This document shows positions 2,709 to 15,500 of a DNA stretch of 64,000 nt, one piece after another. This DNA is from Salinivibrio sp. ES.052 (GTDB taxonomy: Bacteria; Pseudomonadota; Gammaproteobacteria; Enterobacterales; Vibrionaceae): positions 714,251-778,250 of the forward strand of contig NZ_FSRI01000001.1 in the NCBI RefSeq assembly GCF_900141775.1, in the 5' to 3' direction. Within the stretch, counting starts at the first letter, position 1, and every line of letters starts with the position of its first letter. Below the pieces are notes generated by a model. It searched no databases, was not told where the DNA came from, and saw only the letters and a program-made list of their open reading frames with translations. Both the position numbers and the translations under genes were made by a program.

Positions 2709-3557
2709 ATGGAACAAATTACCGCGTGCGTAGATGGCCCGCATTATTCAAAGCAAGTAGCAGACTTGAGTATTTGGGCGGCCAAGCGCTTGTCTGTGCC
2801 GCTGACGCTGCTGCATGTGCTGGATAAATCCTCACACCAAACAGAGCCTGAATTATCAGGTAACTTAGGTGTAGGAAGCCGCGAACAACTGCTACAAGAA
2901 TTGGTTGAGCTGGATGAGCAGCGCGCCAAATTGGCAATGAAGCATGGTAAAGCCTTGCTGTCAGAGCTAGAAGATGACGCCAAAGCGAAAGGCATTGATG
3001 ATGTCCGTAAACTACAACGTCATGGCAATTTAGTTGAAACACTGCTTGAGCTTGAAGCGAAAACCCGTGTGCTGGTATTGGGCAAATCGGGTGAGGTGCA
3101 TCAAAGCGATGCCAAGGCGATTGGCTCACAACTAGAAAGCGTTGTGCGTTCACTGAAAGCCCATACCTTGGTTGCTAATGGTGAGTTTTCTGTGCCAGAG
3201 AGCTATTTGCTCGCATTTGATGGTAGTGATATTAGCGAAAAGCTGGTGGAAAAAGCCCTCAGTACACCATTGCTGGCAGGAATGACGTGTCACTTGGTGA
3301 TGGTCGAAGACTCGCAAGAAAAGCTTGCCGCTTTTAAACGTGCTGCAGAGCGACTGGAAGCAGCGGGAGTCAATGTAGTACAGGCTCAGTTAACCGGCGA
3401 AGTACACCGTGCGATCCTTGAATATCAAGCGTCAAAACACGTTGGGATGATCGTGATGGGGGCGTATGGTCATTCAAAATTGCGTCAGTTCTTCGTGGGG
3501 AGTAACACCACTAAATTGTTGGTGGAATCAACGGTGCCTATGTTATTGATCCGCTAA
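2709..3557 (+). CDS. tandem-domain universal stress protein
   Basis: This 282-residue protein holds two Usp (alpha/beta, UspA-fold) domains, roughly residues 1-150 and 155-282. The second ends with the nucleotide-binding signature G-x2-G-x9-G-S/T, seen as GAYGHSKLRQFFVGSNT. The first half has LVLGKSG but not the complete motif, so ATP binding is probably confined to the C-terminal half. This layout resembles UspE-type proteins. It starts 11 bp after the SulP gene with a GGGAGA ribosome site and is followed by a strong terminator, so the two genes form a closed operon. A role in tuning the transporter under stress is only inferred from that pairing. Confidence 0.85.
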   Translation: MEQITACVDGPHYSKQVADLSIWAAKRLSVPLTLLHVLDKSSHQTEPELSGNLGVGSREQLLQELVELDEQRAKLAMKHGKALLSELEDDAKAKGIDDVRKLQRHGNLVETLLELEAKTRVLVLGKSGEVHQSDAKAIGSQLESVVRSLKAHTLVANGEFSVPESYLLAFDGSDISEKLVEKALSTPLLAGMTCHLVMVEDSQEKLAAFKRAAERLEAAGVNVVQAQLTGEVHRAILEYQASKHVGMIVMGAYGHSKLRQFFVGSNTTKLLVESTVPMLLIR

Positions 3558-3581
3558 TTGAGAACGGACAGTGATAATAAT

Positions 3582-3609
3582 AAAAAACCCGCAGCGATGC
3601 GGGTTTTTT
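3582..3609 (+). terminator. Rho-independent terminator of the SulP/Usp operon
   Basis: AACCCGCA, a four-base loop, TGCGGGTT and a run of T residues, with matching A residues on the 5' side. It could act on both strands, but the minus-strand gene ends at 3678, where two copies of TGGCAATGCA (3631-3640, 3652-3661) lie between. Confidence 0.85.
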
Positions 3610-3677
3610 GATCTGACCTTCATTGCTTGGTGGCAATGCACTATTCCTTGATGGCAATGCATTACCGAGTGGCGTTA

Positions 3678-4226
3678 TCAGTATTTAAAGCGCGTGGTAA
3701 ACATAAACTGATCGCCATACCACTCGTTAACACGGTAGGCAGCGCCCAACGAGAACAGCTCAGTGGCGTGGAATCGACCGTAAGCAGAGCCAAAGGTATC
3801 TTCTTCATCATCAACGGTCAGTAGGCCGATTTCACCGCCGACCTCGACCTGTGGACCTAGCCACTGACGAATACCGAGATTGACTTCTAAGCCAACATCA
3901 CTCTCAAAGTTGTCTTTATTGACGCCACGGGCAAGCAACTCACCGGTCAAGTCTGCCCAGTTGTTGATCGGCGCATGAAAGCCAACCCCTGCAGCTGTAT
4001 CCCAATCGGAATCAAACTCGGTATCTGCTTCTACACGAATGTGTGCATTGGGATGGATAGACATGCTAAATCCTGCACCATAGGTGAGTGGGCTGACACC
4101 GATGCGTCCTTCCAGGTAATCGTAACTAAAGTTACTCATGGTGGTGAGGTTGGCGTCTTCTTCATTGGCCACGGCGCTGAATGAAGCCAAAGCGACAATC
4201 GCGCTGGCTAAAAGAGATTTACGCAT
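3678..4226 (-). CDS. YfaZ-family outer membrane beta-barrel protein
   Basis: The 182-residue product begins MRKSLLASAIVALASFSAVA, a textbook signal peptide with cleavage after AVA. Alternating hydrophobic strands follow, ending in FKY, the aromatic terminus expected of an outer-membrane barrel. The strand pattern and glycine distribution resemble the YfaZ family of small outer-membrane proteins of unknown function. I chose ATG at 4226 rather than the in-frame GTG 12 bases upstream because the signal peptide starts there and GGAA lies upstream of it. It stands alone, convergent with the SulP/Usp operon and co-oriented with the signalling pair behind it. Confidence 0.75.
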   Translation of the reverse strand: MRKSLLASAIVALASFSAVANEEDANLTTMSNFSYDYLEGRIGVSPLTYGAGFSMSIHPNAHIRVEADTEFDSDWDTAAGVGFHAPINNWADLTGELLARGVNKDNFESDVGLEVNLGIRQWLGPQVEVGGEIGLLTVDDEEDTFGSAYGRFHATELFSLGAAYRVNEWYGDQFMFTTRFKY

Positions 4227-4359
4227 TATCAATTCCACTTGTTATTGGTGTTCAAATCATTCTATAAGACGATTGCGCGGGGAAACAAGCACATCCGCCC
4301 GTGAGTCAGGCTTTTTTACCGATTTTTGACCTATCGGCTGGTATGAACTGGCTTGGCGA

Positions 4360-4860
4360 CTACTCTGCGCCCATGTCCCACTTGTTTCGGTTGATTGCTT
4401 CCACCACTCGCGGCGTGTCCAGCACGCTGGCCCAGGGAAATAAATTGGGTTCATGGGCAACCATATAACTGGTTAACTGATCGGTCACCACGCTCACCAA
4501 GGTATCTTTTTGCCAAGGCTTGGCGAGATAGTAGTGCAAATGGGCATGATTAACCGCCGAGACGGTATCCTCAAGCCCGGCCTGACCCGTGAGTAATATC
4601 TTGCGTGCTGAAGCGTTTTCAGGCTGGTTAGCCAGCTCAATTAAAAAATCGACCCCTAGCTCACCGGGCATAATATGGTCACACAGAATCAACGCCAACT
4701 TGGTGCCTTCTGCGGCCATTTCCGCAATCACTGTTCGCGCTTCTGCCACTGACTCTGCCGCTTCCACCTCAAAATGGTCGGTAAAGCCTTGTAAGCCATC
4801 GATCACGCTATCGAGTACATCGCGTTCATCGTCGACACATAAAATTAAATATTGGCTCAT
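4360..4860 (-). CDS. single-domain response regulator (receiver plus short tail)
   Basis: The 166-residue protein is a CheY-like receiver with all key residues: acidic pocket D10-D11, phospho-acceptor D61 (in LILCDHIMP), T91 and K114 (in LAKPW). A tail of about 45 residues follows, with no recognisable DNA-binding or enzymatic output domain. Its ATG overlaps the stop of the upstream histidine kinase (4857-4860), so the two are translationally coupled. The receiver and tail are clearly paralogous to the N-terminal region of that kinase, with the same residue numbering throughout. It is probably the phosphorylation target of the kinase, acting by protein-protein interaction or as a phosphorelay intermediate. 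Confidence 0.85.
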   Translation of the reverse strand: MSQYLILCVDDERDVLDSVIDGLQGFTDHFEVEAAESVAEARTVIAEMAAEGTKLALILCDHIMPGELGVDFLIELANQPENASARKILLTGQAGLEDTVSAVNHAHLHYYLAKPWQKDTLVSVVTDQLTSYMVAHEPNLFPWASVLDTPRVVEAINRNKWDMGAE

Positions 4861-6812
4861 ACGTGTGGCTCCTTACTGGCAGAGGCGGGGAGTTCAATCG
4901 GCAAGGTCACTGTCATTGTAGTGCCGGTACCGGGTTGGGAGTGCACCTGAATATCGCCCCCTTGTTGATGAATGATGGTTTGGCACATGGTCAGGCCAAT
5001 CCCTAAACCAAAATGGCCTTCTCGCTTGGTGGTGTAATTTAACGCGAACATTTTCTCTTGTTGTTCTTGAGTCATGCCGATGCCGGTATCACTGATGGCC
5101 ACCTGAATGGTGCCAGACGCTTGGTCGTTAAGGGTTTTCACCGTTACCGTGAGCGTCCCTGGTTCTGGCATGGCATCGATCGCATTAGCGATAAGGTTGG
5201 TCCAAACCTGTGCCAATGCCGATGGCTGAGCCACCATATCCGGTACCCAGTCATACTGTTTTTCAAGCTGGTGTGGTTTAAGTTGGTGCTCAAATAAGGT
5301 GAGGGTATCGTCGATGCTTTCAATAATGTGGGTGCGCTGGCGTTGCTCGCTGTCTTGGCGGGCATAGGTGCGTAACCCTTTGACCAAGTCGGCAATGCGT
5401 GTGGCGCACACATGGTTGGAGCGCAATAAGCGACCGCATCGGGCATATTGTTTCCAGGTGGTGATTTGGGTATCAAAATCGTTACCAAGGCGCCGCTGCC
5501 ATTGAGCGACGTCGTCTTGCTGATAAAGCCCTATGTTAACCAAATCCCGCGCAAGATGTTTGTCGCCCATGCGTTCGCTTAACGCGCGAGTATGCGCCCG
5601 TGCTGTTGCCGTCGATAAAGGTGCCCCGTTACGGTTGTTTTGCAATAATTGTAAGGCTTGTTCTCGGCTGTCAGTGTCTAGCGGTGTTTTTGCCACGTGT
5701 TCTAAGGCCTCAGCCAGTGCCTCGCTATTGCGTAAGATTGCGGAGACCGGATTATTCAGCTCATGTGCTACCCCAGCGACTAATTGGCCGAGCAATGCCA
5801 TTTTTTCTTTTTCGACCAGTTGGCGGTTGGCTTCGTCCAGTGATGCGAGCGTTTGTTGCAATTGGATCTCAGTATCAATGCTGCGTTTTAGGCGTTGATT
5901 GAAGTGTAAAAGGAGATACTGGATAAATAGGGGTAACAGCTCGGAGCGGCTGGTCATGATTTTACTAAATAACGGATGGTCGATTTTGATCACTTGCGTA
6001 CGAGTCAGGGTGCGGCCAGTAGAGAAAGAGACGTCACCAGTGACAAACGACATGCTCCCGATCAAACTGCCGGAGGAGAGAGTAGAGACATGGTGTTCTT
6101 GCCCTTCATCATCGGTTTTATAAAGGCCTACCTCGCCGTCGGCAATAAACCACAGAAACGCATTATCTTGATTTTCTTTCGTGAGGACATGATTGGCACT
6201 GTAGGTGCGGCAGGCTCGGCTTTCGTCGTTGCCCTCAAAAAATGCGTATAATCCAGCAATGACTCGGTCGGCAATCGCGGTTTTATCGGTCTTAGCAGGG
6301 GCGAGCAGTTGTGACTGAAATTGACTTATCTCTCGCTCAACTTGGGCATCTAATAAGGTGCGATGATCCAAAACGTCGGCATAGCGCAATAAATCATGTT
6401 GGCAATAGCGTAAGACGTAGGTTGTGAGCTCTTTTTCGGCGACGCGCTGCAATTCATTGGCTCGCCAAGGCTTATGCATACAATAATTTAGCCTTCCTTC
6501 ATTGACCGCCTGCAAAATAATATCGTATTGCGGCGCATCACTGAGCAAAATGGTACGAGCCCCTTGGCTTGCCGTATAATTATCAACATTCACCAATAAA
6601 TCGATGCCATGGTTATCACCCGGAATGTTGTGGCAGATCAGCAATGCCACCTGTTGCTTGCTTGCCTCGAAGTCGCTTAGTAAGGCATAGGCATCATCAG
6701 GGGTGTCTGCACTGCAAAGATCAAACAAATCACGAAACGGGGCGAGGTCGTGAGATAACTGCTCCACCACGAAAGGATCTTGGTCAATGCACAATATAAC
6801 GTAAGGGTTCAT
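4857..6812 (-). CDS. hybrid sensor: pseudo-receiver + cyclic-nucleotide-binding domain + histidine kinase
   Basis: Numbered from the chosen start (MNPYVILCID), this 651-residue soluble protein has a receiver-like domain (1-125) and a linker related to the tail of the downstream regulator. A CAP_ED-type cyclic-nucleotide-binding domain (about 195-305) and a coiled-coil stretch (310-345) follow. The transmitter has H-box VAGVAHELNNP with His350, an N-box (NLIANAIDAMP), G1 (DTGIGM) and G2 (GLGIGL). In the receiver the phospho-acceptor aspartate is His61 and the second pocket acid is Gln11, while Lys114 is kept, so it should not be phosphorylated. A longer frame reaches 6947, but its first 45 residues look non-coding. 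No membrane segment is seen, so the signal is probably intracellular. Confidence 0.85.
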   Translation of the reverse strand: MNPYVILCIDQDPFVVEQLSHDLAPFRDLFDLCSADTPDDAYALLSDFEASKQQVALLICHNIPGDNHGIDLLVNVDNYTASQGARTILLSDAPQYDIILQAVNEGRLNYCMHKPWRANELQRVAEKELTTYVLRYCQHDLLRYADVLDHRTLLDAQVEREISQFQSQLLAPAKTDKTAIADRVIAGLYAFFEGNDESRACRTYSANHVLTKENQDNAFLWFIADGEVGLYKTDDEGQEHHVSTLSSGSLIGSMSFVTGDVSFSTGRTLTRTQVIKIDHPLFSKIMTSRSELLPLFIQYLLLHFNQRLKRSIDTEIQLQQTLASLDEANRQLVEKEKMALLGQLVAGVAHELNNPVSAILRNSEALAEALEHVAKTPLDTDSREQALQLLQNNRNGAPLSTATARAHTRALSERMGDKHLARDLVNIGLYQQDDVAQWQRRLGNDFDTQITTWKQYARCGRLLRSNHVCATRIADLVKGLRTYARQDSEQRQRTHIIESIDDTLTLFEHQLKPHQLEKQYDWVPDMVAQPSALAQVWTNLIANAIDAMPEPGTLTVTVKTLNDQASGTIQVAISDTGIGMTQEQQEKMFALNYTTKREGHFGLGIGLTMCQTIIHQQGGDIQVHSQPGTGTTMTVTLPIELPASASKEPHV

Positions 6813-7094
6813 ACACGCTGCCGAACTACCGTAAATATGCGTTGATTGTATGCATTTATCCGCGGCAATGATGCGAAATGGTCGACATTCACGAATAAAT
6901 ACACCGTATTCTGCATGGCGGTACTGTGATACATGCCCTTGCCTCATTAGTGAGAAAGTTCCTTCTTATTATTCATTGTCTATTGACCTGTGCGATGGCT
7001 TCCATAACAGTTTGCCTTCACCGTATAACGCGTTATCTTCAGCGCCTAATTTTAGTTACACTATGACTTTTCGCATGCCTGAGGCAAAGAAAAC

Positions 7095-8384
7095 ATGTTT
7101 TTAGGAAAGTATGGCGCCATCGCAGGGGGGCTTGCGATTGTCGCTTGTTGGCCGTTTGCGACGGGTCAGATCGCACAGTCAATGTATGAGCGAGAAGTGG
7201 ATCAACGCTCAACCCCAGAATTTACCCTCGAGCAGCAGGCGTATGAACGCGGGTATTTAAGTTCACAGGCGGTCACTCGTATCGAGTTTCAAGGGGAGAG
7301 CAAAGCGATGCTCGCGCAGTCGGGCTTGCCAGTTAGCTATGAAATCACCTCAGATATCTCTCACGGTGTGATTGGCGTGTCGTCGAGCAACACATTGGTG
7401 ATGACGCCCGAGTTGCAAGCGATCACGCAAAAGGCATGGCCAGGTAACCCAACGCCGGTCCGTCTACAATTGGATACCCTTATGACAGGGGCATCTGATT
7501 ATCACCTTACTGTGGCTCCTTTCTCTCTGTCAGAGGCGAGCAGCAATCTCACTGCGAGTGAGCTAAGTCTAAAAGGCGAAATTGATCGCAAAGGGCATGT
7601 TAAAGCGAATTTCTCGTTGCCCGCATTGGCTTTTAATGATGATAGCGGTCAGCAACTCAAAGTGGATAGCGTGTCTGGCACGGGAAATGGCTATTTGCAA
7701 GATGGCTTGTGGATTGGTGAGCAGGCGCTATCGATAGAGAAAGCGCATTTCAGTGATATCAGTGGCCAATCATTGAAGCTGGGCCACGTGACGTTAGAGA
7801 TAGGCAATGAGCTGGTTGAATCTGAATCAACTCGTGAACTGAACAACACCAATCAACTGACCGTGGGAACGATTGCGTTACCGAATAAAACGCAATGGCG
7901 CAACTTGGTGGTGGCATTAGATGCTAACCATCTCGATTACAGTGCCATGTCTCAAATTGCACAGCTCTCTTCGCAGTGGCAAGAAGAGGGTGCGACAGTG
8001 AGCATGAAAATGCTCGATCAAGCCTTGGTACAATTGTTGCAGTCGGGGCTATCGATTAACTTGTCGCCCGCCAGTTTGACCTTGCCAGAGGGCGATGTCA
8101 GCGTGGATATGCACCTGAATCTTAAAGACGGTGATCCTACTGGCGTGTTCAATTTACAGCAGCTGGTGAATCAGGTCTCCGGTGATCTTGATGTGTCTGT
8201 ACCAAACGGAGTGCTCACTCACTCACCGTGGCAAGAAAAAGTGAGTAACTTGGCCAGTGCAGGGTTTGTCACACAAACGGATGAAAATACTGTACTTACC
8301 GCCAAAATAGAGGGAAACCAAGTGGTAGCGTCTGATGGTACAGCGGTGCCATTGGTGCAATTTGTCATGTTTATGCTGATGTAA
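7095..8384 (+). CDS. DUF945 (YdgA-like) family protein
   Basis: This 429-residue protein has an N-terminal hydrophobic segment (about residues 5-25) that would anchor or export it, followed by a long beta-rich region. After the anchor comes a segment ending AYERGYLSSQAVTRIEF, matching the DUF945 pattern of a tyrosine/glycine-rich turn followed by SSxA. The family is periplasmic, inner-membrane-anchored and of unknown function. The C-terminus ends in a hydrophobic stretch (VQFVMFMLM). A GAGG element lies about 10 bases before the ATG. It is 64 bp from the PilZ gene and may share its transcript, but no functional link is known. Confidence 0.7.
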   Translation: MFLGKYGAIAGGLAIVACWPFATGQIAQSMYEREVDQRSTPEFTLEQQAYERGYLSSQAVTRIEFQGESKAMLAQSGLPVSYEITSDISHGVIGVSSSNTLVMTPELQAITQKAWPGNPTPVRLQLDTLMTGASDYHLTVAPFSLSEASSNLTASELSLKGEIDRKGHVKANFSLPALAFNDDSGQQLKVDSVSGTGNGYLQDGLWIGEQALSIEKAHFSDISGQSLKLGHVTLEIGNELVESESTRELNNTNQLTVGTIALPNKTQWRNLVVALDANHLDYSAMSQIAQLSSQWQEEGATVSMKMLDQALVQLLQSGLSINLSPASLTLPEGDVSVDMHLNLKDGDPTGVFNLQQLVNQVSGDLDVSVPNGVLTHSPWQEKVSNLASAGFVTQTDENTVLTAKIEGNQVVASDGTAVPLVQFVMFMLM

Positions 8385-8448
8385 ACGCCCCCCAGGGCAC
8401 TGACTTGAGAGGCCGGTGCCCATTCACTCATAACAGTAAAAGCGAACG

Positions 8449-9189
8449 ATGATGCAGTCTTTGCCTGAACTGAAGGCCAAAAAATACAAAACTGTCAGAG
8501 AAGAGACAGTCATAGGGTTACGTGCCGTGGCGTTTATGAAGCACGGCACCACCACGCAGATACAAATAAAAACCCCAGTAGGGCAAACGTATCGTTGTGA
8601 ATGTACCTTTATCGGTTTTGATGGCGAGAAGCGCTTGTTCTTTTCACTGCCGACAGAAAACCTCAATCAGGTTAACCAATTTTTTATTGAGGGTTATCGC
8701 TTAGCGGTCGATGCCACTTCAGACGAGGGTGAAGGCGCAAAAGTACGGTTTGCTTCTAAGATATCGACCGTGCTTAAGACACCCGTCAATCTGGTCATGG
8801 TGGAGTTGCCTCAACAAGCTAAATTGGTACAACAGCGCAAAGACAATCGCTATGAATTAAACGTGAAAGGCGAAGTCCCGATCGATAACCGTCGTTTGCC
8901 CGTCAATCTTACCGATATCTCTGCGGGGGGATGTGGGTTTAGCTTTGATGCTATTGCTCCTGTCTTTGAAAAGCACCATCAAATTGCGATTCAAATTCAA
9001 GCGCCGGACAGTGATGAGTGCTTTATTTTGAGCGGTCAAGTTGAGAACCGCCAACAAAAATGGGGCATGCAGCGCTATGGCGTCTCGTTTGATCGCGGTG
9101 GCCTTAAGCATTGCGCGGCCTTAATTAAACGGCTGGTTTACGATGGTTCACATTACATTTTTAATCCGCAGGTGGAATCGAATGAGTGA
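8449..9189 (+). CDS. PilZ-domain c-di-GMP receptor protein
   Basis: The 246-residue protein has an N-terminal beta-barrel-like domain of the YcgR-N type (about residues 20-125) and a C-terminal PilZ domain (about 128-240). The c-di-GMP-binding signature is complete: RxxxR in QQRKDNRYELN and D/NxSxxG in DISAGGCGF. YcgR-like proteins slow the flagellar motor or act on pili when c-di-GMP is high; which applies here is not known. Two adjacent ATG codons (8449, 8452) could each start it. Two GGDEF proteins encoded 11-15 kb away supply possible partners in the same pathway. Confidence 0.85.
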   Translation: MMQSLPELKAKKYKTVREETVIGLRAVAFMKHGTTTQIQIKTPVGQTYRCECTFIGFDGEKRLFFSLPTENLNQVNQFFIEGYRLAVDATSDEGEGAKVRFASKISTVLKTPVNLVMVELPQQAKLVQQRKDNRYELNVKGEVPIDNRRLPVNLTDISAGGCGFSFDAIAPVFEKHHQIAIQIQAPDSDECFILSGQVENRQQKWGMQRYGVSFDRGGLKHCAALIKRLVYDGSHYIFNPQVESNE

Positions 9190-9281
9190 CAGCGTCACTT
9201 TTTAGTGCGCCATTGATGACGTGATAGAGATTGATGGTGCGATAGATAGAACGCCTCCGGATGAGTCGATGGTTAACCGAA

Positions 9282-10904
9282 TCATTCTAGCGGGGTGACA
9301 TAGGTCACTTTCGCTGGGATGTGATGTTGTAAGAAAAACTGCAGCCAACGTGTTTGGTGTGGCTGCAAAACATCCCCGGGTCCTTTTACCTCTACCCACT
9401 GATAATGTGTGCCTTGACACATAAACAGATCGGGATGACCGCGCCGATTATGCTGTCGATCAAATAAAATACGTGCGAAGCAGGCGGTGAGTTGTGACTC
9501 AGTCAGTACGCTTAATGCGGCTTCAAGCAGTGGCCATTCAATGACCGACCAGTTAACCCAATCATTGTTGATTCCTTGCTTTTGCTGATAGTGATGTGCC
9601 ACCCAGTGATGGGCTCTGCCTATTTCAGCGAGGCGCGCATCAATCTGTGATTGCCTCTGAGTGATAAAGTCGTCGCTATAAAGATCGCGTGGCCCGCGCT
9701 GAAACGGGTTGAGAAACGCACCGCGAACGGACAAAAACAAAATATCCCAGAAAAATAGCCCAAATAGCGCGTTGAGCAGGCTGTTTTCGCTATACCACAC
9801 CTGCCAGCCTTGTTGGCGATAATGGTCGGCAACTTCGTTTTCAACACGCTGATTGAGCGGTAAGGTCAAGGTCTGTGTCGGCAGTGCCGGCTGTCTCACT
9901 AGCGCTGAAGGAGCCAGGTTACCGAATGTGCGAACGGGCTTTTGTTTCGCCAGGCGATATGCCACATCGAGCTCTTCCTCATCATGTGGGACACGGATCA
10001 TGGTTGCAATGATGTTTGATGCCGCTTCAATCTCTCCTTGCTTAATCAATATGCGCGCTTGTCGTTCTTGGCTGGGGGGTTGTGTGGTGGTTTGATAGAG
10101 CGATAATGCTGTCAATAAGTCACCCTGGCGCTCAAACTCGCGCGCTATACGATTGGCGAGCCGCTGCCGTTTGCGCTCTAACGGAGACCAATCAAACGGC
10201 TCGGGTAAGTGGGATTTCAGGGCTAAAATGGCCTCGGGGCGCTTTGCTTTTCGCGCTTGCCAAGCCATTTCATTTAAGGCCGATAAATGGAGCCAATCAT
10301 CAATGTGTCTCCGGTGTTGGAATAAACGTTCAGCCCGTCGAATCGGATAGGATTCAAATCGTTGGATACCTAACTCAGCCACCACAAACTGGCTGAGATC
10401 TTGTCGTGAGTTACCAAAATACAGCAAGAGTAAGACAGCGAGAATGTCAGGGTGGTGACAAACCACGAGAGAATACGGGCTAGTTAGGCTCTCACCATAC
10501 GTCTCAATAATTGCAGCTTGCCACTGTTTTTTACGGGCACTTTTCGACAAGATCACAGCAGGAAAAGCGGCGATAAGTTGTGATTTGCTAAGCAAGTTGA
10601 GTAAGACGTTGGCGGGGGCGCTGTGTGTGATACTCACAAATTTTTGCTCTGCCAGAACGTTAAGTAGTGGCTGCGTCTCTCCAAGTTCGGGGTAGAAGAG
10701 GCTCTCGGCCACAAACCAATCATGCCGCCGCATCAGTAATCGGATCAGCAGGCATTGTGCTTTAAAGCTAAGCTGTTGAAAGGTCGTGATCCAGATCCTT
10801 TCTTGTTCCGTGAGCAGATCCCAGTCACGTTCAGACACTAAATCCATCAAGCTTTGAAAGTTATGATGGTAATAATAGGGGCTAAGAGGGTCTGGCTGAG
10901 TCAT
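9282..10904 (-). CDS. VRR-NUC domain nuclease, FAN1-like
   Basis: The 540-residue protein ends in a VRR-NUC nuclease domain. Near residues 490-520 it has RRGHPDLFMC, then WVEVKGPGDVLQPHQ, giving the catalytic PD-(D/E)xK arrangement (D, E, K of EVK) and the QxxW that follows. The helical N-terminal ~450 residues correspond to the SAP/TPR-like region of bacterial FAN1 homologues, which cut 5' flap and interstrand-crosslink DNA structures. It is a stand-alone gene. Its start lies 47 bp from the divergent Nudix-PAP2 gene, so promoters must overlap. Family assignment is confident; the precise substrate is inference. Confidence 0.82.
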   Translation of the reverse strand: MTQPDPLSPYYYHHNFQSLMDLVSERDWDLLTEQERIWITTFQQLSFKAQCLLIRLLMRRHDWFVAESLFYPELGETQPLLNVLAEQKFVSITHSAPANVLLNLLSKSQLIAAFPAVILSKSARKKQWQAAIIETYGESLTSPYSLVVCHHPDILAVLLLLYFGNSRQDLSQFVVAELGIQRFESYPIRRAERLFQHRRHIDDWLHLSALNEMAWQARKAKRPEAILALKSHLPEPFDWSPLERKRQRLANRIAREFERQGDLLTALSLYQTTTQPPSQERQARILIKQGEIEAASNIIATMIRVPHDEEELDVAYRLAKQKPVRTFGNLAPSALVRQPALPTQTLTLPLNQRVENEVADHYRQQGWQVWYSENSLLNALFGLFFWDILFLSVRGAFLNPFQRGPRDLYSDDFITQRQSQIDARLAEIGRAHHWVAHHYQQKQGINNDWVNWSVIEWPLLEAALSVLTESQLTACFARILFDRQHNRRGHPDLFMCQGTHYQWVEVKGPGDVLQPHQTRWLQFFLQHHIPAKVTYVTPLE

Positions 10905-10951
10905 CTTTTTCCTTACCTTTCATCAGGACACGCGCATTCAGGAGCCGCCGA

Positions 10952-12448
10952 ATGAAACGGAGTATCATTGCACTATTGTCAGTTTTAATTGGGTTAGTGT
11001 CGAGCTGCGCTTTGGCTGAGAATGAGAATACGTTTTCTACCGAGCAAGGGATCGCTGGAGTGGCTTGCATTATTACTGATCCGGCTGGGCGGTTAGTCTT
11101 GGTCAAAGACAATGTCACCGGCCGTTATGGCTTACCCGGGGGGCGGGTTAACCTTGCTGAATCACCGACTCGGGCATTAGCGCGCGAAGTGTTTGAGGAA
11201 ACCGCGATTCGTGTCACCGTGGGCGAGGTGTACCACAAAGACAATCGGGGAGTCTTATTTGCTTGCCAAAGCCAAGCGCCACTGCCGGTGGTGTCGAAAG
11301 CTGACGGGACTGGCTTTTTGCCAGTATGGCGTGCACCACACTTTGCCTCAGAAATTGATGAAGCCTATTTAGTCCCTGCCGTTCATGCAGACGATTATCG
11401 CTACCGCTTTAACGGCCGAGGGGAACTATTGTGGTCGTTGGCGGCTAAAGCTCCCAGTAGCGATGTGACGGCACTGGCTGATTTTAGTGCCTTAGCTCCG
11501 ACGTTTTATGTCAGCCAATATGGTTTAGTGACCGGAGTGCAACAAGCGGTGGCGATGATGGGAGACACTGCCAGCGTATTGACTAAGCAGATTTTTAGGC
11601 TGGTGAATACCCTTGGGGAAACCGCTTTTTATGTCGCCTTGGTCCCGTTGTTTCTTATTTTTCGCGGCCATAAGTCGGCCCTGTCTCTACTGTTTTTATT
11701 GATAAGCGCAGCTGCCGTTTCAACCACATTGAAGACGGGCTTTGCGATGCCTCGACCTTTTTATTTGTGGCCAAATTTACAAATTGGAGAAGCGAGTGGG
11801 TTTACGGTACCCAGCGGGCACACTTTGTTGGCGGCGGCGGTCATGACGGCGTGGTATTTAAAGCGCCGAGTGAATGATGGCCCAGCGTACGGATCGTTAG
11901 TAATTGCTCTGGGCGTGGTGACCTTGATGGGTCTAAATCGTATGTATCTTGGGGTCCATTTTGCTAGCGACGTCATCATTGGTGCGCTTGTGGGCGCAAG
12001 TGTTGCGTGGGCCACGGTCAACATGGATGCGATGACAATCGCAAAGGGGAGGCCGCTACTGACCACGGGCAGAATGTGGCTACTGATTTGTTCTATCCTG
12101 GCGCTACTAGCATTGGCATTGAAACTGCCCAATTTAGTCTATCTCGCGGCCTTAGCGGCGGGGGTATATACCGGCCAGGTTTGGCATAAGCTGTTCCCCA
12201 GTCATAAACCAGCCACATCCTTTAAGGGTAAGCTATTGACCTTGGCATGGATTTTCTTAGGGGCAGGCGGAATGATTGTCGCGGCTTGGTGTGTCACGCA
12301 ATTAACGGGTCTGAGTTGGATCGTACTGATTATCGTGTCGATGTCGGCCTGGAGTTTAGGCCCGTGGGTATTAATTGCCAGTCCCGAACTGGCGAAGTGG
12401 TCGGGGGCTAGACTCGGCTGGTGTAATGGTGACAAGGATACATGGTGA
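10952..12448 (+). CDS. Nudix hydrolase - PAP2 phosphatase fusion protein
   Basis: One 498-residue chain carries two phosphatase-type enzymes. Residues 1-22 are a signal peptide (cleavage near ALA; a VSSC lipobox-like motif at 16-19 is an alternative). Residues 30-165 hold a Nudix fold with a near-consensus box G64-x5-E70-x7-R78-E79-x2-E82-E83. Residues 195-360 hold a PAP2 domain with K261-x6-R268-P269, PSGH at 287-290 and R330-x5-H336-x3-D340. Four more membrane helices follow. PAP2 enzymes of this type dephosphorylate lipid pyrophosphates or phosphates on the periplasmic side. Having the Nudix half exported as well is unusual, since Nudix substrates are mostly cytosolic nucleotides. ATG at 10952 follows GGAGCCG. 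Confidence 0.85.
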   Translation: MKRSIIALLSVLIGLVSSCALAENENTFSTEQGIAGVACIITDPAGRLVLVKDNVTGRYGLPGGRVNLAESPTRALAREVFEETAIRVTVGEVYHKDNRGVLFACQSQAPLPVVSKADGTGFLPVWRAPHFASEIDEAYLVPAVHADDYRYRFNGRGELLWSLAAKAPSSDVTALADFSALAPTFYVSQYGLVTGVQQAVAMMGDTASVLTKQIFRLVNTLGETAFYVALVPLFLIFRGHKSALSLLFLLISAAAVSTTLKTGFAMPRPFYLWPNLQIGEASGFTVPSGHTLLAAAVMTAWYLKRRVNDGPAYGSLVIALGVVTLMGLNRMYLGVHFASDVIIGALVGASVAWATVNMDAMTIAKGRPLLTTGRMWLLICSILALLALALKLPNLVYLAALAAGVYTGQVWHKLFPSHKPATSFKGKLLTLAWIFLGAGGMIVAAWCVTQLTGLSWIVLIIVSMSAWSLGPWVLIASPELAKWSGARLGWCNGDKDTW

Positions 12449-12555
12449 TGAGGATTTACTGGGTGATCGCTTTGGCTGTGCCAAGAGTTAAGGTAAAGTG
12501 ACAGCACAACAAAAAAATGGCACCAGGCATGGTGATACAGCGCACAGGAACAGCA

Positions 12556-15500
12556 ATGATACCGGCAATACACCCTCAGGCGGGCTTGTCGTCCGCCGTC
12601 GTTGATTTTCTCTCCGCGGTACAAGAAGCGGGGTTTCATGGCGATATTGAATCGACTTATGCAAGCCGTCTTGCGGTGGCGACAGACAACAGTGTCTATC
12701 AAGCACTGCCTCAAGCCGTTCTCTTCCCTTCTTCCGTTGACGATCTGCAATTGATCGGTCAGACCGTTCAAGCCCCCTCCTTTAGTGAGATTAAATTCTC
12801 CCCTCGTGGCGGCGGGACAGGGACCAATGGTCAGTCGCTCACCAAACATGTGGTGGTAGATGTGTCTCGTTATATGAACCAGGTGCTAGAGGTGAACCCT
12901 GAGCAAGGCTGGGTACGTGTGCAAGCGGGGGTGATTAAAGATCAACTCAATGATGTGCTGCGGCCGTATGGTTATTTTTTCTCGCCGGACTTATCGACCA
13001 GTAACCGTGCCACTGTGGGTGGCATGATTAATACCGATGCATCCGGGCAAGGCTCACTACGCTATGGGAAGACATCGGATCATGTATTGAGTTTAAAAGC
13101 GGTATTAATCGATGGCAGTGTACTGGATACCCAACCGCTTAATGCGGAGCAGCTCAACCATGAAATGACGCGAGAGGATCTGTGTGGGCGAGCGCTCGAG
13201 ACGGTATCATCCGTGTGTCGTGAGCATCGCGATCTTATTACCGATACTTTTCCGCCGCTCAACCGCTTTTTAACCGGCTATGATCTTAAGCATGTTTATG
13301 ATGACGCGCTCACGGCGTTCGATGTTGGCCGCGTATTATGTGGTGCGGAGGGCTCTCTAGCATTTATCGCCGAGGCTAAGCTCAATATTACGCCGATCCC
13401 GACGGTGCGTACTTTGGTGAATATCAAATACGACAGCTTTGATTCGGCATTGCGTAATGCGCCAATGATGGTTGATGCCAAAGCCCTCTCTGTTGAGACC
13501 ATTGATGCTAAAGTGCTCGATCTGGCACGCAATGACATTGTTTGGCACACCGTCAGTGAGTTGTTGCAAGACGTTCCCGGTAAAACCATGCACGGGATTA
13601 ATATGGTGGAGTTTGCCGGTAATGATGCTAGCGAAATAGATGCTCAAATTACCGCACTGTGCGAGCAGCTAGATACATTAATGGCGCAGCAACAAAAAGG
13701 GGTGATTGGTTACCAGATCTGCCGTGACTTAGTGTCAATTAATAAAATTTACGGCATGCGTAAGAAAGCGGTCGGATTATTGGGGGCAACCAAGGGAAAA
13801 GCCAAACCCGTTGCATTTACCGAAGATACCTGTGTGCCACCGGAAAACTTAGCTGACTTTATTGCCGAGTTTCGGACATTACTGGATAGCCATCAGCTGC
13901 ATTATGGCATGTTTGGTCATGTAGATGCGGGGGTGTTGCATGTACGCCCTGCGCTGGATCTTTGCGATCCTGAGCAAGAGAAGGTGATGAAAACGCTCTC
14001 TGATCAAGTGGTAGCGCTGGTGGCGAAATACGGTGGCTTAATGTGGGGCGAGCATGGTAAAGGCTATCGCTCTGAGTATGGTCCCGCTTTTTTTGGCGAC
14101 ACCTTATTCACTCAGCTACGGCGTGTTAAAGCCGCCTTTGATCCACAAAATCGGATGAATCCCGGTAAGATTTGCACACCAATTAATAGCGACGATAACT
14201 TGGTTAAAGTCAACGACACCAAGCGCGGCTTTTATGATCGCCAGATCCCAGTCGAAGTGCGCGATAGCTTTAAAGGGGCGATGGAGTGTAATGGTAACGG
14301 ACTGTGTTTTAACTATGACACAGCTTCACCCATGTGTCCGTCGATGAAGGTGAGTTACGATCGCCGTCATTCACCCAAAGGGCGTGCGGGGATAGTGCGC
14401 GAGTGGCTACGTTTGCTGGCTGAACAAGGTGTGGATCCTTTGGATGTTGAGCAAACCTTAATGACGCAATCCCCTTCGGTGCGCGAGGTGATGGCTAAGT
14501 TTGGTCGTTATTTTACCCGACGCAAAGAGGTGGATGATTTTAGTCATGAGGTGATGGAAGCCATGAGCGGCTGCTTGGCCTGTAAGGCCTGTGCCAGCCA
14601 GTGTCCGATTAAAGTCGATGTCCCAAGCTTTCGTTCGCGCTTTATGCAGCTTTATTACAGCCGCTATCCGCGCCCGATAAAAGATCATTTGGTTGCTAAC
14701 ATCGAGACGTTACTGCCATTCATGGCTAAAGCGCCGACGTTAGTCAATGCGGTCACTCAGCCGCAGTGGGCGCAAGGTATGACCGCGAGTTGGATTGGCT
14801 ACACAGATACGCCAGCGTTGTCTGTGCCGACATTGAGGCAATCGCTAGCTGGTGATCATGCACTCAAATTTGATCTGGCTTGGTTACACGCGCTGTCCGC
14901 ACAGGAGCGTGAAAACTATGTATTGATTGTGCAAGACCCCTTTACCAGCTTTTATGAAGCGCCGTTGCTCCAAGACTTGGTTAAACTTGCGCGTCAATTG
15001 GGCAAAGTGCCGATGCTGGTGCCGTTTAAACCTAACGGTAAAGCACAGCATGTAAAAGGGTTTTTGCGTCGCTTTGCACAGACGGCACGTAACACTGCGG
15101 GCTTTTTGAATCAATTAGCGGGACTGAATATTCCGATGGTGGGTGTCGATCCTGCTTTGGTTTTGTGTTACCGCGATGAGTATCAAGAAGTGTTGGGCCG
15201 TCACCGAGGCAGCTTTAATGTTCAATTGAGCCATGAATGGCTCACCAGTGTGATCCCCAATTTATCAGTGCAGCCAGATAGAGAAGTAGATCCTTGGTAT
15301 TTATTCGGCCATTGCACGGAGAAAACGCAGTTACCGCACGCTGAACAACAGTGGGTTAATTTGTTTGCACACTTTGGTGCGGTGTTGAAACCCGTCTCTG
15401 TGGGTTGCTGTGGTATGGCGGGGACGTATGGCCACGAAGCCGATAAGCGCGCTACCTCAGAGGCGATCTATGATTTAAGTTGGTCGCCCTTGTTAGCCGA

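Follow-up and report, generated by a model that had tools for sequence, protein, structure and literature searches.

A putative pseudo-receiver, paralogous to the adjacent response regulator, at the front of a Salinivibrio histidine kinase

We analysed a stretch of 64,000 nucleotides of the Salinivibrio sp. ES.052 genome (assembly GCF_900141775.1, contig NZ_FSRI01000001.1, positions 714,251 to 778,250; hereafter the window, whose own coordinates are used throughout), which encodes a soluble histidine kinase followed by a single-domain response regulator (Table 1). Judged from sequence comparison, the N-terminal domain of the kinase (the built-in domain) is an old paralogue of that regulator (the partner), lacks two residues needed for phosphorylation and is nevertheless held under purifying selection, while the motifs of the kinase and the partner are intact. 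We propose that the active kinase would phosphorylate the adjacent regulator and that its front pseudo-receiver would serve as a phosphorylation-independent control module in cis, a reading that we regard as an even call.

RESULTS

Paralogy of the built-in and partner receivers

Pairwise BLASTP of the kinase N-terminus against the regulator gave 48 identities (31%) and 93 positives over 157 residues with 3 gap positions (E 7e-26), and the statement in the preliminary description of this locus that the two align 'residue for residue' was thus nearly literal. The key residues named there were also read in both sequences: the regulator has D10, D11, D61 and K114, whereas the kinase has Q11 and H61. 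In full, the kinase copy carries D10-Q11-D12, H61, S91 and K114, with T91 of the regulator standing where the kinase has S91. When each was used to search its own genome with self matches excluded, the regulator retrieved the kinase N-terminus first (E 5e-20; next match 3.4e-11) and the kinase N-terminus retrieved the regulator first (E 1.2e-20; next match 8e-6). A chance similarity of two receivers was ruled out by these reciprocal best matches and the pairwise BLASTP. When profiles were compared, that of 84 Vibrionaceae built-in domains matched that of 104 partners with an E of 5.8e-44.

The kinase was not reported by the Pfam Response_reg model at E ≤ 0.01. An AlphaFold2 model of its residues 1–167 (mean predicted local distance difference test score, pLDDT, 87.2; predicted template modelling score, pTM, 0.84) matched solved receivers, with a Foldseek E of 5.9e-7 and Z of 17.8 to 2rjn and 17.1 to HupR 2vuh. 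With a (βα)5 receiver fold in the predicted structure and Q11 and H61 at key positions of the sequence, the kinase N-terminus is classed as a putative pseudo-receiver. Response_reg is the sole Pfam match of the regulator, in which all key residues are present, as expected of a single-domain regulator. Its closest solved sequence is HupR (E 4.9e-13), which was not included in the receiver tree below, and its best NCBIfam match, below the cut-off, is the NosR family. Receivers of the HupR/NosR type also rank high among the folds that match the dead copy, but the regulator studied here is without an output domain.

Distribution of the kinase and age of the duplication

A search for the same domain order in other genomes, as the preliminary description had suggested, found kinase orthologues with a front receiver across the window's family and several others. 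The kinase was present in 248 of the 329 genomes of the window's family (E ≤ 1e-80) and in 65 of the 394 genomes sampled from the order (E ≤ 1e-60; families coded f1, f10, f12, f13 and f25), and named relatives with the kinase include Photobacterium aquae, Enterovibrio, Vibrio species and Motilimonas. As orthologues we took the 127 kinases (123 distinct sequences) whose core-profile score exceeded 600 bits, the next whole kinase scoring 306 bits; the kinase of genome G006, broken into pieces of 387 and 270 bits, was excluded. Counts were taken from loci and not from every matched genome, and the orthologue fractions depend on sampling because part of the loci are the highest scorers of their search and the group coded g8 contributes many.

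The partner adjoins the kinase in 111 of the 127 loci (including L157, L159 and L047), the other 16 being 15 loci of family f12 and locus L192. Although no partner adjoins them, 14 of the 15 f12 kinases keep the front domain. Twelve f12 genomes were searched whole. Eleven have a receiver (E ≤ 1e-10) matching the regulator at 34–39%, of which five were in the receiver tree and fall with receivers of a related short kinase pair, and the other six were judged by eye; the twelfth genome (79% complete) yielded no regulator-like receiver at E ≤ 1e-10. In the L192 genome, the sole match to the regulator at E ≤ 1e-10 is the built-in domain itself.

Several irregular loci were recorded. One f12 kinase, a 462-aa open frame (L187:1995-3380), has no front receiver; the Vibrio maritimus kinase (L047:7986-9955) is divided into two overlapping open frames, the front receiver and the remainder; and two draft genomes of the window genus (loci L007 and L002) carry a pair that reads as broken, whether by true decay or by an assembly error, the kinase of G006 being split and having in-frame stops and the regulator of G003 going out of frame.

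A tree was built from 79 selected receivers. In it, the built-in domains formed one group (25 rows, support 100/99) and the partners a second (25 rows, 86/96), both spanning families, and receivers of the short kinase pair were set apart from these (10 rows, 100/98). The built-in domains, the partners and the receivers of actinobacterial pairs clustered together (89/87, not starred), with the branching order among them not settled: joining built-in and partner receivers (N+P) cost 0.53 log units with an approximately unbiased test value (p-AU) of 0.473, joining built-in and actinobacterial pair receivers (N+A) gave a p-AU of 0.204, and the grouping of partner with actinobacterial pair receivers (P+A) stood in the best tree at 56/37. 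Taken together, the reciprocal matches, the profile comparison and the tree indicate that the duplication is real and older than the split of the sampled families; a duplication confined to this lineage was ruled out, as each group spans families. The preliminary description had suggested that a duplication gave one working receiver and one pseudo-receiver. The two are indeed paralogues, one with a full site and the other without two essential residues, but the event was not local, and the built-in copy keeps the acidic pair, the phospho-accepting Asp and the Lys in several relatives, among them g8, which includes Photobacterium aquae, and g3, which includes Enterovibrio.

State of the phosphorylation site

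Among the 104 partners, D10, D11 and D61 are present in all, T91 in 102 and K114 in 101, the remainder being gaps or odd rows; in a separate alignment of 15 partner regulators all five residues are invariant. Site 61 of the 123 built-in domains is D in 50, S in 23, H in 20, A in 15, E in four, G in three and another residue or a gap in eight, counts that include nine f10 rows (eight of the D61) too decayed for safe alignment. N104 is found in 120 and P115 in 109 of the same 123. A live signature, in which D-D-D or D-D-E is combined with D61 and K114 and site 91 is N, S or T, is kept in g8, g3 (except L192), g5, g11 and g13. The window genus has H61 in all eight genomes, with Q11 in seven and H11 in one; Vibrio copies mostly have N11, and their site 61 is S, H, T, C, N, A or R; that site is G in g4 and g9, A in f12 and E in f13; and f25 and g6 keep D61 without the acidic pair. 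The Pfam receiver model scored above its cut-off in two of six orthologues scanned, both with the live signature.

Unweighted parsimony on the kinase-core tree gave four changes, whether D61 alone or the whole signature was scored (of the 114 rows 103 were scored, 9 f10 rows and 2 rows without the domain being left unscored; 9 near-identical Vibrio rows had been omitted from the tree). With the whole signature, every scored row outside the window's family is dead, and the count of four changes is by itself no proof of loss; we read it as repeated loss because regain of the entire residue set is improbable. The built-in site was thus probably silenced more than once. In the same tree the window genus joins L010, which has the live signature, although this may be a long-branch artefact, and an independent loss in the genus is likely rather than proven.

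Selection on the dead domain

Approximate ratios of nonsynonymous to synonymous substitution (dN/dS) for six genomes of the genus were 0.097 for residues 1–135 of the kinase, 0.088 for the partner and 0.082 for the ATPase domain, and 0.073, 0.049 and 0.045, respectively, when the most distant genome was removed. This set leaves out G003, whose partner is out of frame; with G003 included, the values were 0.05–0.07 for the dead domain, 0.05–0.08 for the ATPase domain and 0.10–0.11 for the partner. Mean identity inside the genus was 86% for the front domain and 85% for the ATPase domain, with a ratio of front-domain to ATPase-domain distance (N/CA) of 0.95. These values indicate that the dead domain is under purifying selection roughly as strong as that on the partner and the ATPase domain. 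The front domains of f12 and f25 change faster, with N/CA ratios of 1.95 and 2.08.

We then compared the information content of 50 Vibrionaceae rows without D61 with that of the partners and of 34 built-in rows with D61. At the phosphosite loop (61–67), the dead rows held 1.91 bits against 3.71 in the partners and 2.81 in the D61 rows, and at the T loop (91–95) they held 2.19 against 4.12 and 2.71. At 105–109 in the α4–β5 region, the dead rows reached 3.88 bits, the highest of 18 segments, against 3.34 in the partners and 3.33 in the D61 rows. The acidic loop (10–12) retains fair conservation among the dead rows (3.14 bits), where conservation is partly a matter of shared descent because the set is mostly Vibrio.

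Kinase core and CRP-like domain

The H box, N box and G boxes of a HisKA histidine kinase are all present, and H350, N539, N543, D575, G577, G579, G602, G604 and G606 are kept in all 123 orthologues. Searching with the fold of the whole kinase returned mainly kinase catalytic cores among the 50 matches listed. Between the HisKA match and the second helix of the dimerization and histidine phosphotransfer (DHp) domain lies a mostly helical insert of ∼75 residues (5418-5648); an insert of the same kind, bearing a [TS]xxxR motif, could be aligned in other kinases, three of them actinobacterial, two from short pairs and one cyanobacterial. The insert matched no Pfam family, and in the PDB it had only five matches, all of 20 residues, to ETV6-type fusions.

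The phosphate pocket of cyclic nucleotide monophosphate (cNMP) domains is formed by a Glu and an Arg. In the kinase, the CRP-like fold was recognized by PF00027 (E 5e-14; 52.5 bits against a cut-off of 27.5), and the pocket positions were taken from an alignment of the kinase to the solved CRP-like chain 2pqq. The Glu site (253) is G in 112 and S in 11 of the 123 orthologues, and the Arg site (262) is S in 87, A in 29, G in six and C in one, with R in none; M254, S255, F256 and F263 are invariant. According to part of a review (PMC8846402), domains in this Pfam class bind cyclic AMP (cAMP) or cyclic GMP (cGMP). Of the 'cyclic-nucleotide-binding kinase' in the preliminary description, the fold stands, but binding through a standard pocket is unsupported, since both pocket residues are missing in all 123 orthologues. 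It is more likely that the ligand is non-standard or that there is none.

Two related kinase–receiver pairs were seen. A short paralogous pair, comprising a cNMP-fold kinase without a front receiver and a lone receiver, was found at L031:2089-3912 and in L022, L024 and L110, and in Photobacterium aquae it adjoins a sodium:sulfate symporter-like gene; none of the 7 regulator matches in the window's genome is a receiver of this type. Actinobacterial contigs (L050-L055), including one of Mobiluncus mulieris, carry a related kinase and receiver, and Pfam showed no receiver on the three of these kinases that were scanned.

Gene layout

The stop codon of the kinase and the start codon of the regulator share an ATGA overlap, which suggests translational coupling. 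In 18 of the 19 named loci, a relative of the β-barrel gene is found downstream in the same orientation, with other genes intervening in some relatives, and the DUF945 gene holds the same position in 18 of 19; in the Motilimonas locus neither gene was found. A terminator scan of 3400-7200 found no hairpin between the regulator and the β-barrel gene, and the hairpin in Table 1 is the only minus-strand candidate in that range, where the scan overall gave two sites against a mean of 3.5 in shuffles, fewer than expected by chance. Because no hairpin precedes the β-barrel gene and one follows it, the kinase, regulator and β-barrel gene may form one transcript. A promoter scan gave a result at chance level, and an Rfam scan of 3500-12600 gave no matches. 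Elsewhere in the window, a single open frame at 10952-12448 combines a NUDIX domain with a PAP2 phosphatase domain, and 9285-10904 encodes a FAN1-type helix-turn-helix with a VRR_NUC nuclease.

Table 1. Features of the kinase–regulator locus and its neighbours, in window coordinates
Feature	Position	Strand	Remarks
Soluble histidine kinase, 651 aa	4857..6812	-	ATG at 6812, stop codon ends at 4857; order: pseudo-receiver, CRP-like fold, HisKA, HATPase_c
N-terminal pseudo-receiver of kinase, residues 1-136	6405..6812	-	D10, Q11, H61, S91, K114
H61 codon of kinase	6630..6632	-	Phospho-accepting Asp expected here
Q11 codon of kinase	6780..6782	-	Second acidic metal-site residue expected here
C-terminal extension of pseudo-receiver, residues 137-166	6315..6404	-	Alignable to the partner C-terminal tail up to residue 156
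cNMP_binding (CRP-like) fold, residues 202-287	5952..6209	-	Without the usual phosphate-pocket Glu and Arg
HisKA match, residues 341-388	5649..5792	-	Phospho-accepting His350
Helical insert, residues about 389-465	5418..5648	-	Between HisKA match and second DHp helix; common to related kinases
HATPase_c, residues 530-640	4893..5225	-	N and G boxes intact
Single-domain response regulator, 166 aa	4360..4860	-	Runs from 4860 to 4360; full active site (D10, D11, D61, T91, K114)
ATGA overlap, kinase stop and regulator start	4857..4860	-	Read directly from sequence
Outer-membrane β-barrel-like gene	3678..4238	-	Next on same strand; Pfam match below cut-off
Terminator-like hairpin	3582..3609	-	12 pairs, T-rich tail; 3' of the β-barrel gene
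DUF945 gene	7095..8384	+	Divergent

DISCUSSION

Proposed mechanism and alternatives

The operon would encode a soluble two-component pair. Given the intact motifs and the overlapping genes, the kinase would naturally be expected to autophosphorylate on His350 and to hand the phosphate to Asp61 of the adjacent, coupled regulator. The front domain, as an old duplicate of the regulator that in this genus is without the residues needed for phosphate, may have been retained to act in cis on the kinase dimer, through its α4–β5–α5 face and the helices leading into the CRP-like domain. That domain would probably provide a second input, and standard cAMP or cGMP binding by it is unlikely. Since the phosphorylation residues are gone and yet the fold and the α4–β5 segment are under selection, regulation by contact is most likely.

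Several observations weigh against control in cis. The dN/dS values are approximate because dS was 0.6–1.1; Vibrio makes up most of the dead Vibrionaceae set, leaving it with less diversity than the partners have, a bias that sequence weighting corrects only in part; and the whole-kinase model has a pTM of 0.41, too low for domain packing. In f10 the partner is present and the front domain has decayed, with an N/CA distance ratio of 8.0 in 7 rows and E-values of 2.6e-5 to the built-in profile and 0.084 to the partner profile, so the front module appears dispensable in some lineages. Furthermore, the extension is scrambled in the partnerless f12 (29% identity) while it is 63–94% identical in five groups with a partner, a hint that it serves the partner and not the kinase alone.

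This last point would fit a dead receiver that is a docking platform, forming an α4–β5–α5 heterodimer with the live regulator and either recruiting it or stabilizing its active form, as would the more than 70% consensus in both copies at A102, N104, L108, K114, P115, L121, L129, T130, L148 and D149 (kinase numbering) and the precedent of VirA, a kinase whose receiver binds its own regulator VirG (PMC4705274, in part). However, residues common to both copies may reflect the fold core or common descent, f12 retains the domain without an adjacent partner, f10 lets it decay beside one, and the extension of the partnerless L192 shows no special loss (60% identity to relatives, against 64% for the ATPase domain). 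We consider docking unlikely, although the comparative evidence between docking and cis control is mixed. Somewhat less probable still is a true ligand sensor for the kinase that binds a small molecule such as a cyclic dinucleotide, as ShkA does. The best-kept part of the dead domain does lie on the face where ShkA binds cyclic di-GMP, with G106 and L108 fixed and R107 nearly fixed in the dead Vibrionaceae set, but the same stretch is present in built-in copies that keep the site, so that no pocket gained with silencing is required.

The decay in f10, the faster change in f12 and f25, the 462-aa kinase without the domain and the drift of residue 61 among S, H, T, C, N, A and R in Vibrio would suit a decaying remnant of little function, carried along with an intact kinase. 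A dN/dS near 0.1 in the window genus, a distance matching that of the ATPase domain and residues fixed outside the active site make such a remnant improbable. We give the least credence to a domain that still accepts phosphate, on His61 or weakly at another acidic residue: D10, D12, S91 and K114 are retained and H61 is constant in the genus, but other lineages have S, A, G, T, R, C, N or E at 61 and the pattern of the 61–67 loop is lost. A broader evolutionary scenario, which we put forward tentatively and think rather doubtful, is that the partner receiver was captured at the front of the kinase, initially served as an additional phosphate acceptor and later underwent several independent silencing events, becoming an input or docking domain whose α4–β5 face would sense the state of the partner or a ligand.

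Comparison with known systems

Pseudo-receivers are already known as kinase inputs from ShkA and CikA. In ShkA of Caulobacter, the pseudo-receiver restrains the kinase until cyclic di-GMP, bound on the α4–β5–α5 face, releases it (PMC7010744 and PMC12632262, each in part), and its authors proposed that pseudo-receivers are a large unrecognised class of kinase inputs (part of PMC7010744). The kinase studied here likewise has a pseudo-receiver within an otherwise active kinase and an α4–β5–α5 face that stands out. Unlike in the hybrid kinase ShkA, whose pseudo-receiver (REC1) is placed between the catalytic core and a C-terminal receiver, the domain is N-terminal, before the CRP-like fold, HATPase_c ends the protein with no C-terminal receiver found by Pfam, and the pseudo-receiver is a paralogue of a separate partner; ShkA is thus an analogue and not a member of the same family. 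CikA of Synechococcus, whose pseudo-receiver inhibits the kinase and binds quinones and KaiB, shares a degenerate receiver with a cis role, here proposed, but has other partners and another binding surface (part of PMC12632262). VirA, which recruits VirG through its receiver, also combines a receiver on the kinase with a separate regulator (part of PMC4705274), but our regulator consists of a receiver alone. A single cascade in R. centenum involves both a lone receiver and receivers on kinases (part of PMC3868531). The short pair of Photobacterium, Enterovibrio and others has the same kinase type and a related lone receiver, but its kinase is without an N-terminal receiver.

Significance

Among the open-licence papers in the matches listed, none had a title or opening of its abstract that concerned this kinase–regulator pair, which does not imply its absence from print. 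To the known cases, our analysis adds a dead copy that is a paralogue of the kinase's own partner, is old and under selection, and has probably been silenced more than once. Because the Pfam receiver model misses the domain in the window, similar cases may be hidden. Part of a 2025 review calls the on/off switching mechanisms of bacterial pseudo-receivers a mystery (PMC12632262). Here, the site of one orthologous domain, in the same operon place, is near-complete or ruined depending on the genus, and a live paralogue lies adjacent as a control; this live-to-dead series would make the fate of a receiver after phosphate loss directly testable by swaps. If the scenario of repeated silencing is true, the family would show a route by which receivers turn into kinase sensor domains.

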